Positions 49,281-52,941 of a stretch of 57,922 bases of DNA are shown here, one piece after another (within the stretch, counting starts at the first letter, position 1; the number at the start of each line of letters is the position of its first letter). Position numbers and translations under genes: made by a program. This DNA is from Clostridiales bacterium (GTDB lineage: Bacteria > Bacillota > Clostridia > Caldicoprobacterales > DTU083): the NCBI GenBank assembly GCA_012839095.1, contig DUOA01000091.1, forward strand, positions 1 through 57,922. The letters are read 5' to 3'. Under the pieces are notes generated by a model. It had not been told where the DNA came from, did not search any database, and saw nothing but the letters and a program-made list of their open reading frames with translations.

Positions 49281-49308
49281 TTGTCAAATTTGCCTGTTGT
49301 GGTAAAAT
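49281..49308 (+). promoter_or_regulatory. Possible promoter of the RpiR-family gene
   Basis: TTGTCA (49281-49286), 16 bases, TAAAAT (49303-49308), about 35 bases before the ATG. Confidence 0.5.
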
Positions 49309-49342
49309 AATGATGAACTGTGCAGAAAAGGAGCGTTTTTCG

Positions 49343-50206
49343 ATGAACAAACAGGACCTGATTCACCGCATAGAGTCTTACTATAAGAAAATGAGCAAGG
49401 GGCAGAAGTTGATAGCGGAATACATAATGAACAATTATGATAAAGCAGCTTTTATGACAGCTGCCAGGCTTGGTGAGGTTGTAGGCGTAAGTGAATCTAC
49501 GGTAGTCCGTTTTGCAGGCGTCCTCGACTATGACGGATATCCAAAACTGCAAAAAGCACTACAGGAATTGATCCGCAACAAACTTACCACGGTTCAACGC
49601 ATCGAATTATCTTCTGAATTGGATCAGGCAGTTGTTCTTAAAAGTGTTCTTAAGGCGGACATGCAAAATATCCGTCAAACTATCGATGAAACAGACAACG
49701 AAGTCTTTAATGATGTAGTTAATAAATTTCTGCAGGCAAGGCACATCTATGTACTTGGATTGCGCAGCGCTTCTCCACTGGCACAGTTTATGGGTTATTA
49801 TCTGAACTTTGTATTTGACAATGTAAGAATAGTAACTTCTGGTGTCAGTGATATTTTTGAACAGCTGTTTCATATAGGACGGGGAGACTTGCTGATTGGA
49901 ATCAGTTTTCCCAGATATGCCAGTCGAACTATTGAGGCCATGAGATTTTCCAGAGAAAGAGGCGCACACACAGTTGCTCTTACTGACAGCATGCTGTCTC
50001 CTTTAACCGACTATGCAGACTGCACTCTTTTGGCCAGAAGTGACATGGCTTCCTTTGTTGATTCTTTAGTAGCTCCGCTCAGCCTGATCAATGCGCTCAT
50101 AGTTGCCATCGGACAAATAAAAAAAGCAGAAATCTCTTCCCGCTTTCACCAACTTGAGGATATATGGGCAGAATATCAGGTATATGTGGAAAAATACAAA
50201 GGATGA
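49343..50206 (+). CDS. MurR/RpiR-family transcriptional regulator (HTH + SIS)
   Basis: A 287-residue regulator. The N-terminal HTH_6 domain (about 1-77) has QKLIAEYIMNNYDKAAFMTAARLGEVVGVSESTVVRFA spread over it, the usual RpiR recognition region. The SIS domain (about 120-255) binds phosphosugars, with LGLRSASPLAQFMGYY near 137 and GISFPRYASRTIEAM near 185. The effector is unknown; sugar phosphates or MurNAc-6-P are typical. No sugar operon adjoins it, so its target is elsewhere. AAAGGAG precedes the ATG by 9 bases. Confidence 0.92.
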   Translation: MNKQDLIHRIESYYKKMSKGQKLIAEYIMNNYDKAAFMTAARLGEVVGVSESTVVRFAGVLDYDGYPKLQKALQELIRNKLTTVQRIELSSELDQAVVLKSVLKADMQNIRQTIDETDNEVFNDVVNKFLQARHIYVLGLRSASPLAQFMGYYLNFVFDNVRIVTSGVSDIFEQLFHIGRGDLLIGISFPRYASRTIEAMRFSRERGAHTVALTDSMLSPLTDYADCTLLARSDMASFVDSLVAPLSLINALIVAIGQIKKAEISSRFHQLEDIWAEYQVYVEKYKG

Positions 50207-50245: not shown

Positions 50246-50857
50246 ATGTATATTTATCTGACACGCCACGGAGAAACTATTTGGAATATTCAACGGAGAA
50301 CCCAGGGTATCCGTGATACTGAGCTTTCCGACAGAGGGATACGTCAGGCAGAAGTGCTGGCGGAGAAGCTCTCCGGTGAATCTTTCTCTCAGATATATTC
50401 CAGCACCTTGAAACGCGCTTATCATACAGCAGCTGTCATTGGGGAAAGACACAGTATTTGTCCTGTCAAAAGGAAGGAACTAAATGAAGTCAATTTCGGT
50501 GTGTGGGAGGGTCTGACCCGAAATCAGATTGAAGCTGAATATCCGGGGCAATTGGACAGACATCGAAAGGATTTTTCTTTTGAACCCCACCAGGGCGAAT
50601 CCTTATACTCTCTGCAAAACAGAATTTGTAATTTTATACAATATATTCAAGACAGACATAATGCTGATGATGAGCGGATACTGGTGGTTGCCCATTCTTA
50701 TCCTGTTCGAATGTTGATTGTGAAGTTATTGGGATTTCCCCTCAGGCACTTATGGGACTTTCAACTGGACAATACAGGGATAAGCATTATTCAATGGAAA
50801 TCCGATAGAAGGCGGCTGGTATGTCTGAATGATACCAGTCACCTGTCCGGACTATGA
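50246..50857 (+). CDS. Histidine phosphatase family protein (phosphoglycerate-mutase-like)
   Basis: A 203-residue branch-1 histidine phosphatase. The phosphorylated His is in LTRHGETIWN (RHG, about 6-13); the second His is in VVAHSYPVRML near 148. The acid residue lies in NEVNFGVWEGLTRNQIE near 80. Relatives include CobC alpha-ribazole phosphatase and broad-specificity phosphatases; with no cobalamin genes nearby the substrate is open. A weak GGGAGGA SD lies 4-10 bases before the ATG. Confidence 0.88.
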   Translation: MYIYLTRHGETIWNIQRRTQGIRDTELSDRGIRQAEVLAEKLSGESFSQIYSSTLKRAYHTAAVIGERHSICPVKRKELNEVNFGVWEGLTRNQIEAEYPGQLDRHRKDFSFEPHQGESLYSLQNRICNFIQYIQDRHNADDERILVVAHSYPVRMLIVKLLGFPLRHLWDFQLDNTGISIIQWKSDRRRLVCLNDTSHLSGL

Positions 50858-50904
50858 CTTCATATACAGTGCATGCAGCACATGTTAACCAGGAGGTATA
50901 GCTT

Positions 50905-51318
50905 ATGGAAATTCCCGGAAGCAAGGAAGCATCAAGAGCAGCATTACGCATGGCACTAACCCGGAATCGTGAGGATGAGAGGGAACTAAAAACGGAAATG
51001 CAAAAACATGGAATTCTTGCCGCTGCTGTAGATTATGGCGGAGAATTTATTCCTTCTATCACCAGGATCATTGAAAGGGCAGTGGTAGCTGCTAAAAGAG
51101 AAGGTTTGATAAAGGATTCTCATGGAGAAGAAGGTGCTGTAGCAGGAGCGGCCCGTGAAGCCTTGTCACAGATTATGCCAAAGGCTCTGGGGTTGAATGT
51201 CGGCGGTAAAATTGGGATTTCCAGAAATCAGGACCATATCTGTGTCGCCCTTTTCTTCGGAATCGGGCTCCTGCATCTGAATGAAGTTGCAATAGGGCTG
51301 GGCCATCGTGTAGTATAG
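50905..51318 (+). CDS. HutP-family RNA-binding protein, without the expected metal-binding histidines
   Basis: A 137-residue protein that aligns by eye with HutP, the Bacillus histidine-activated antiterminator. HGILAAAVDYGGEFIPS, RIIERAVVAAKREGLI, GAAREAL and a closing HICVALFFGIGLL, AIGLGHRVV follow the HutP fold. In Bacillus HutP, His73, His77 and His138 bind Mg with L-histidine; the corresponding places here appear to be Gly, Gly and Asn. So it may bind RNA but not sense histidine the same way. No hut genes are nearby. The next gene, an AroH-CMK fusion, begins 10 bases later. AGGAGGT precedes the ATG. Confidence 0.75.
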   Translation: MEIPGSKEASRAALRMALTRNREDERELKTEMQKHGILAAAVDYGGEFIPSITRIIERAVVAAKREGLIKDSHGEEGAVAGAAREALSQIMPKALGLNVGGKIGISRNQDHICVALFFGIGLLHLNEVAIGLGHRVV

Positions 51319-51328
51319 GAGAGTGGAT

Positions 51329-52342
51329 ATGAAATTTTACGCTTTAAGAGGTGCTACCACTGTTACTAAAAACGATAGAGATGAGATTTTACTGAGAACA
51401 ACAGAGCTGATCAGACAGTTATTGAATGAAAACTCATTGGATTGTAAAGATATAGTCAGTATCATCTTCACTGCCACAAAGGATATTGATGCCGTTTATC
51501 CGGCTGTGGCAGCCAGAAAAATGGGTATGACATCCGTTCCGCTGATGTGCTGCCAGGAAATGGACGTGAAAGGCAGCCTGCCCATGTGTATCCGCGTTAT
51601 GATGCATATCCAGCTGGAGGAAGAGAGAGTGTTAAGTCCTGTATATCTGGAGAAAGCAGTTGTCTTAAGACCAGACATTGCTAAACTGACCATAGCCATA
51701 GATGGGCCTGCGGGAGCCGGAAAAAGCACAGTTGCCAGGCTGCTGGCAAAAAGAATGGGTATTTTGTACCTGGATACAGGCGCCATGTATCGGGCAATGG
51801 CATTAAAGGTATTAAAACAGGGAGGGGATCCCGCCAAACCGGAAGATGTCATTCCCTTACTGGCAGATACCGATATTCAGGTTCAACACGGAAATGGTGA
51901 TCAAACCATAATGCTGGACGGACGAGATGTAACCAGCGAAATCCGGGCCAACAGCGTTTCAAATGCTGCTTCAGATGTGGCTACCATTCCTGAAGTACGC
52001 ATTAAACTGGTGGAACTCCAGCGTGGAATTGCAGAGCAAGTCTCTCTTGTCATGGATGGAAGAGACATCGGTACTCATGTGATGCCGGATGCTGCGCTTA
52101 AGGTTTTTCTTACCGCCGCACCTGAAGAAAGAGCCCGTCGCAGGTGGAAAGAATTAAAGCAGAAGGGAAATCTTAATATTGATTTTGATACTATTTTAAA
52201 TGAAATTATAAAACGGGATGAAAATGACAGCAAGAGAACATATGCCCCGCTGAAAAAAGCGGATGACGCAGTATTGATTGATACCACACAAAAATCTATA
52301 GAACAAGTAGTGGATGAGATTGAAAGCCTGCTGAAGAACTAA
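51329..52342 (+). CDS. Fusion of AroH-type chorismate mutase and cytidylate kinase
   Basis: One 337-residue frame carries two complete enzymes. Residues 1-117 are an AroH chorismate mutase: LRGATTV at the start, ATKDIDAVYPA, MCCQEMDVKGSLPMCIRVMM and VYLEKAVVLRPD hold the active-site Arg, Cys/Glu, Arg and Tyr. Residues 118-337 are CMP kinase: KLTIAIDGPAGAGKST (Walker A), DTGAMYRAMA, MDGRDIGTHV and RDENDSKR. There is no linker: the usual CMK start follows directly after the usual AroH end. ATG at 51329 has AGGAG 7 bases upstream. It links the aromatic pathway and pyrimidine nucleotide supply; plsC follows, as it follows cmk elsewhere. Confidence 0.93.
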   Translation: MKFYALRGATTVTKNDRDEILLRTTELIRQLLNENSLDCKDIVSIIFTATKDIDAVYPAVAARKMGMTSVPLMCCQEMDVKGSLPMCIRVMMHIQLEEERVLSPVYLEKAVVLRPDIAKLTIAIDGPAGAGKSTVARLLAKRMGILYLDTGAMYRAMALKVLKQGGDPAKPEDVIPLLADTDIQVQHGNGDQTIMLDGRDVTSEIRANSVSNAASDVATIPEVRIKLVELQRGIAEQVSLVMDGRDIGTHVMPDAALKVFLTAAPEERARRRWKELKQKGNLNIDFDTILNEIIKRDENDSKRTYAPLKKADDAVLIDTTQKSIEQVVDEIESLLKN

Positions 52343-52356
52343 CGGAGGAAGCGGAT

Positions 52357-52941
52357 TTGTTATACTATATTATTCGTGCTATTCTAGTGCCATTTGTCTA
52401 TCTCCTATTTTGGCCGAAGATCCAGGGTAAGGAGAATTTACCAACTGAAGGAAGTGCCATTATTTTTTCCAACCACACTTCTCTTTTTGATCCCATTGTA
52501 CTTGGCTGCCTTCTGCCCAGAAAAATCTATTTCATGGCAAAACAGGAGCTGTTCCGTATTAAGCCATTCGCACTGTTTATGAAGGGTTTGGGAGCTTTTC
52601 CGGTGAAAAGAGGTACTGCAGATATAAGCGCTGTGAAAACTGCCCTTTATACCCTCAGGAAAGGAGAGGTATTTGGTATTTTTCCGGAAGGAACACGAAG
52701 CCGGGATGGAAACATGCAGCAGTTTACCCATGGCACCGCTGCCATTGCACTAAAATCACGGGCGATTACCGTTCCGGTGGTCATAACAGGCGGATATAGA
52801 TTGTTTCGCCCGATTCAGGTAATTGTAGGTAAGCCGCTGGATTTGGAGAAGTATTATGGAAATAAATCCAATTCCGAATTGCTGGACAAAGTGTCAGAAG
52901 AAATGATGGAAGCTGTGAAATCCTTGGTCCCATTCCAATAA
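52357..52941 (+). CDS. plsC: 1-acyl-sn-glycerol-3-phosphate acyltransferase
   Basis: Membrane-associated enzyme making phosphatidic acid, the substrate for CdsA. HX4D motif NHTSLFD is at 39-45 (His40, Asp45); the phosphate-binding FPEGTRS is near 108, and VPVVITGGYRLF follows. One N-terminal hydrophobic segment (about 5-20) is visible. Length 194 is the compact form. TTG at 52357 has GGAGGAAG 8 bases upstream. In many Clostridia ispH comes next; here a 383-base gap follows. Confidence 0.94.
   Translation: MLYYIIRAILVPFVYLLFWPKIQGKENLPTEGSAIIFSNHTSLFDPIVLGCLLPRKIYFMAKQELFRIKPFALFMKGLGAFPVKRGTADISAVKTALYTLRKGEVFGIFPEGTRSRDGNMQQFTHGTAAIALKSRAITVPVVITGGYRLFRPIQVIVGKPLDLEKYYGNKSNSELLDKVSEEMMEAVKSLVPFQ

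Follow-up and report, generated by a model that had tools for sequence, protein, structure and literature searches.

HutP is the textbook RNA antiterminator gated by an amino acid and a metal, and in Bacillus the hutP gene stands before its target genes. The GTIGAPxKG loop of the canonical protein is presumably the one that contacts RNA. TRAP (MtrB) of Bacillus subtilis, the second system with which comparison is made below, has binding to NAG repeats as its defining feature. Repeats of this type are also bound by hexameric HutP, in the hut leader, provided that the protein carries histidine and Mg (PMC7430163). The locus described here encodes a HutP homologue with a different set of residues at the histidine/metal site, and it lies in front of an aroH-cmk fusion in the window (the whole stretch of 57,922 nucleotides that was analysed, from a Clostridiales bacterium).

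HutP family, fold and gene neighbours

The hutP-like gene occupies positions 50905–51318 of the forward strand (ATG at 50905, TAG at 51316–51318), is preceded by a Shine–Dalgarno sequence (AGGAGG, 50891–50896) and encodes a protein of 137 aa. This is a true HutP-superfamily protein. It matches the Pfam HutP family PF09021 with 168 bits (E 1.5e-49; curated cutoff 25 bits), a higher score than the 111 bits of B. subtilis HutP itself. A template-free, single-chain AlphaFold2 model (mean pLDDT 92.2, pTM 0.88) gave HutP as all ten of its best Foldseek matches and was aligned to 1VEA by VIA-align with a Z of 17.0 and an rmsd of 2.2 over 127 residues, the next-best fold, SpoIIAB, reaching a Z of 7.0. 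The protein therefore shares with HutP of B. subtilis (PDB 1VEA, 1WMQ, 1WPV, 4H4L) both its Pfam family and its whole-length fold (Z 15–17), although identity between the two is 24%. No NCBIfam model matches the window protein, and PDB sequence searches with either this protein or the clade profile did not find HutP; as direct sequence comparison with the solved HutP fails, it is the Pfam profile together with the fold on which the assignment depends.

The gene is part of a run on the forward strand. Its first member is probably the gene for an RpiR/MurR-family regulator (HTH_6 plus SIS by Pfam; 49340–50206), upstream of which there is a promoter-like site (49281–49308), and a histidine-phosphatase (phosphoglycerate mutase-like) gene follows (50246–50857; PF00300, E 2.9e-60). 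Downstream of the hutP-like gene, after a gap of 10 bp, comes a gene for a fusion of AroH (chorismate mutase type I) with CMP kinase (51329–52342, ATG at 51329; PF07736, E 5.7e-43; PF02224, E 1.3e-76) and then one for a PlsC-type acyltransferase (52357–52941; PF01553, E 1.3e-31). The Shine–Dalgarno sequence of aroH-cmk (AGGAG, 51317–51321) overlaps the hutP-like stop codon, so that in the window there is no room for an attenuator between the two genes, and no coding-strand terminator was found between them there. An earlier note on this DNA had described the open reading frame as a HutP-family protein of HutP fold next to an AroH-CMK gene, and on all of these points, coordinates included, its description agrees with the profile search, the overlaid structure and the sequence.

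The substituted site and the clade that carries it

Members of five HutP branches were aligned with B. subtilis HutP, its sequence taken from the PDB, using the common GxG and the C-terminus as anchors. His73, His77 and His138 of B. subtilis HutP align with Gly77 (codon 51133–51135), Gly81 (codon 51145–51147) and Glu127 (codon 51283–51285, placed by the C-terminal GxG) of the window protein. The earlier note, which had reported Gly, Gly and Asn in place of the three metal-binding histidines, was thus right that all three are absent and right about both glycines, but the residue equivalent to His138 is Glu127 and the asparagine (Asn126, the preceding codon) lies one residue earlier. Gly77 and Gly81 are invariant in all 111 clade sequences aligned and position 127 is acidic in every one (Glu in 109, Asp in two), from which it follows that the substitution is a fixed trait of the clade and not local decay. 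The alignment also shows that two segments common to canonical members, LRTVG and GTIGAPxKG, are replaced by shorter loops in the window clade.

Also invariant across the 111 sequences are His73, Glu85, Gln89, Lys93, Lys102, His111, His134 and Arg135. Invariant polar residues in such number (those just listed, Gln89 aside) might be expected if the clade were an enzyme re-using the HutP fold, but HutP is the sole strong fold match and no enzyme family is matched in Pfam or NCBIfam, which makes this the least probable of the explanations considered.

The window protein is a member of a conserved clade and no oddity of a single genome. A match to PF09021 was present in 257 of 398 genomes sampled evenly across the phylum, most of the strong matches being of the window-clade type, and this clade (B), which is monophyletic, is the commonest HutP-family branch in the sample. 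When the weaker matches were read as well, five branches could be distinguished (canonical A, the window clade B, C, D and a CBS-CBS-HutP fusion, E), which the tree separates as supported or near-supported groups; support for B is 100/98, while the order among the branches is unsure, the branches being long. Branches C, D and E match PF09021 as B does and differ at the histidines: C keeps all three, D only the last, and E none, with two CBS domains added and ispF as neighbour. The Gly-Gly-acid set is confined to B and is missing from C, D and E. At the same loci the median identity of the hutP-like protein is 69%, against 44.5% for AroH, 53% for Cmk, 42% for PlsC and 44% for the S1 gene, so the clade is under strong constraint.

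Some further features of the other branches were recorded. The fusions of branch E, of about 260–280 aa and with all three metal histidines missing (L131, 1066–1893; L138, L139, L140), adjoin ispF and in some cases gltX or murA. The proteins that retain the three histidines (IHAxxHA ... NHE/NHR; L116, L118, L128, L129) are from genomes in which HutH is present, though not adjoining, and at L128 and L129 CaiB-like genes come next. Those with the last histidine only (VDHE; L120, L121, L123, L127) have varied neighbours.

The earlier note had seen no hut genes near the locus, and this extends to the genome: a search for HutH (PF00221) found no match in the whole of the window's assembly, which is 96% complete. 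HutH is present in two of 23 clade-B genomes, compared with all eight canonical HutP genomes (of which G010 also has a partial clade-B copy and G314 was assigned to its branch from score and family, its sequence being unread) and all four branch C genomes (of which G166 also has a divergent clade-B-like copy). The window clade is thus uncoupled from histidine use: where B. subtilis HutP has a hut gene context, the window protein has aroH as neighbour and a genome without histidine ammonia-lyase.

The main rival to the explanation favoured below is that the protein acts in trans as a general factor in Clostridia-type cells, such as a global regulator that binds RNA or one linked to sporulation, and stands beside aroH-cmk through an inherited gene order that has no meaning for its function. 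We consider this unlikely, but as a serious contender. The very wide occurrence of PF09021 matches speaks for it, as does a conservation exceeding that of the neighbouring genes. SpoIVA, which was found in 336 of the 398 genomes, is also present in most clade-B genomes when the lists are compared by hand; on the other side, clade B occurs without SpoIVA in several genomes (e.g. G081, G227, G363) and the correlation with sporulation is confounded by phylogeny. A strict link to sporulation is therefore unsupported.

An origin in a mobile element was also considered and set aside. There was no match in plasmids, and the one relative from a phage record (MT839154.1, positions 1126–1539, 55% identical to the hutP-like protein) is in a 4.5-kb unannotated ‘Bacteriophage sp.’ entry from human faeces that is probably bacterial DNA.

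Recurrent pairing with aroH

Conservation of the pair, which the earlier note had proposed as a check, was borne out. An aroH gene, either fused to cmk or free, follows on the same strand within 400 bp in 110 of 144 loci, and among the matches listed for both proteins the two genes are adjacent in 78 of 92 genomes, with gaps of 17–143 bp, a count in which genomes with two AroH copies may score as non-adjacent. Two type I AroH genes each were seen in G048, G087 and G122; in G087 (L023) one copy adjoins the hutP-like gene and the other lies elsewhere. Several of the pairs head runs of aromatic genes. In Moorella (L057) the order is hutP-like, aroH, trpE, trpG, trpD, trpC, trpF; the run in Desulfotruncus (L045) includes genes for prephenate dehydrogenase and EPSP synthase; and in Syntrophomonas (L053) a DAHP synthase gene is near the hutP-like gene. 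As trp or aro operons begin with the pair in several genomes, an effector from the aromatic pathway is reasonable. Searches of open-access papers brought up no account of a HutP-like protein from Clostridia or from a locus with aroH, which is indicative only, the subscription literature lying mostly outside the search.

Other arrangements exist. At L147 the hutP-like gene is divergent from, and head-to-head with, aroH-cmk, so that the pair survives rearrangement, a point against mere inheritance of gene order around a general factor. At some loci the hutP-like gene stands immediately before cmk with aroH missing, and at a few it stands by itself, its neighbour often being a convergent DinB-like gene; both the stand-alone copies and the persistence beside cmk after AroH loss are what a general factor would lead one to expect. 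Eight clade genomes that were checked lack any type I AroH (G434, G402, G441, G422, G437, G359, G428, G140), which means that AroH is not needed for retention of the hutP-like protein, and strict dependence on AroH was accordingly rejected. In some genomes that do have AroH the hutP-like gene is far from it.

These exceptions bear on a further explanation, namely that the protein binds no nucleic acid and serves AroH (or the AroH-CMP kinase fusion) as a protein partner or an allosteric subunit, its HutP-type hexamer docking AroH trimers and tuning chorismate mutase. The tight, recurrent adjacency to aroH, whether fused or free, the overlap of Shine–Dalgarno sequence and stop codon in the window, and a conservation higher than that of the enzymes, as might suit a protein with several interfaces, are all consistent with it. 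However, the protein is kept in genomes without AroH, its gene can be distant from aroH where AroH is present, and AroH, at 44.5% against 69%, is too variable for a tight partner. We regard such a role as rather improbable.

Search for RNA targets and the proposed effector switch

Screening for NAG-repeat sites, likewise suggested in the earlier note, gave no support for them. In hutP-aroH spacers longer than 50 nt there were 181 NAG triplets compared with 178.4 in dinucleotide shuffles, and in hutP leaders 1168 compared with 1164.8, so that neither set has an excess. The longer hutP-aroH spacers have no terminator hairpin in common, and at 12 loci no Rfam element was found beside the hutP-like gene, the sole Rfam match being a group II intron 3.3 kb upstream at L052. 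An enriched motif upstream of the Syntrophomonas hutP, TATAGTAAAAT, was dropped, since it appears to encode the C-terminal end of the product of the gene before (NQSIVMxGKIIVK-stop). It is hence very unlikely that the protein is still an antiterminator of the HutP kind, acting on the operon in which it lies and binding NAG repeats in response to a new ligand, as the precedent of HutP, with histidine and Mg leading to NAG binding in the hut leader (PMC7430163), would suggest. The clade gene likewise stands before other genes, as does its Bacillus counterpart, but NAG triplets are not enriched, no conserved terminator or Rfam element accompanies the gene and the GTIGAPxKG loop is shortened. As these searches were of nearby sites, they leave room for RNA-level control of a distant target in trans.

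We favour, tentatively and with less than even confidence, an effector-gated, probably hexameric and probably RNA-binding regulator of the chorismate (aromatic amino-acid) branch with a remodelled Gly-Gly-acid site. The fold, the history of the family and a pocket that is both remodelled and fixed argue for an effector-gated regulator, and the company of aroH, trp and aro genes argues for the chorismate branch, either as the target or as the pathway that supplies the effector. In such a mechanism, the invariant Gly-Gly-acid arrangement having replaced the histidine/Mg effector site in this HutP homologue, the remodelled pocket would bind a small ligand, which may derive from the chorismate branch, and the protein, presumably retaining RNA binding and the hexameric state, would regulate the chorismate branch encoded by its neighbours. 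That the window clade protein is a switch for a signal other than histidine is probable. For a regulator of the chorismate branch there are the adjacency to aroH, the divergent pair kept at L147, the trp and aro genes downstream and the clade support of 100/98; the eight AroH-less genomes, the lone loci, the 10-bp gap, the lack of a terminator and the lack of NAG enrichment count against it. If the protein is indeed an oligomeric effector-gated regulator of this branch then TRAP would be its functional analogue, although the fold and family of TRAP are different and the NAG-repeat binding of TRAP has no counterpart in the spacers and leaders of the window clade.

Should the commonest HutP branch have dropped the site and yet kept the fold and a very conserved sequence, the family would be a general ligand-switch scaffold, and Clostridia-type bacteria would have a core regulator that still awaits study; for its ligand, the pairing with aroH gives a lead that can be followed directly by experiment. 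A bolder proposal, which we think improbable, is that the main HutP branch is a near-ubiquitous regulator of Clostridia-type bacteria whose metal-free pocket takes a chorismate-branch metabolite, and that it exerts post-transcriptional control of aromatic amino acids in place of TRAP or T-boxes. The window genome has 11 T-boxes, of which ten reach the cutoff; those with readable neighbours adjoin tRNA-synthetase genes, and none of them is obviously by aro or trp genes.
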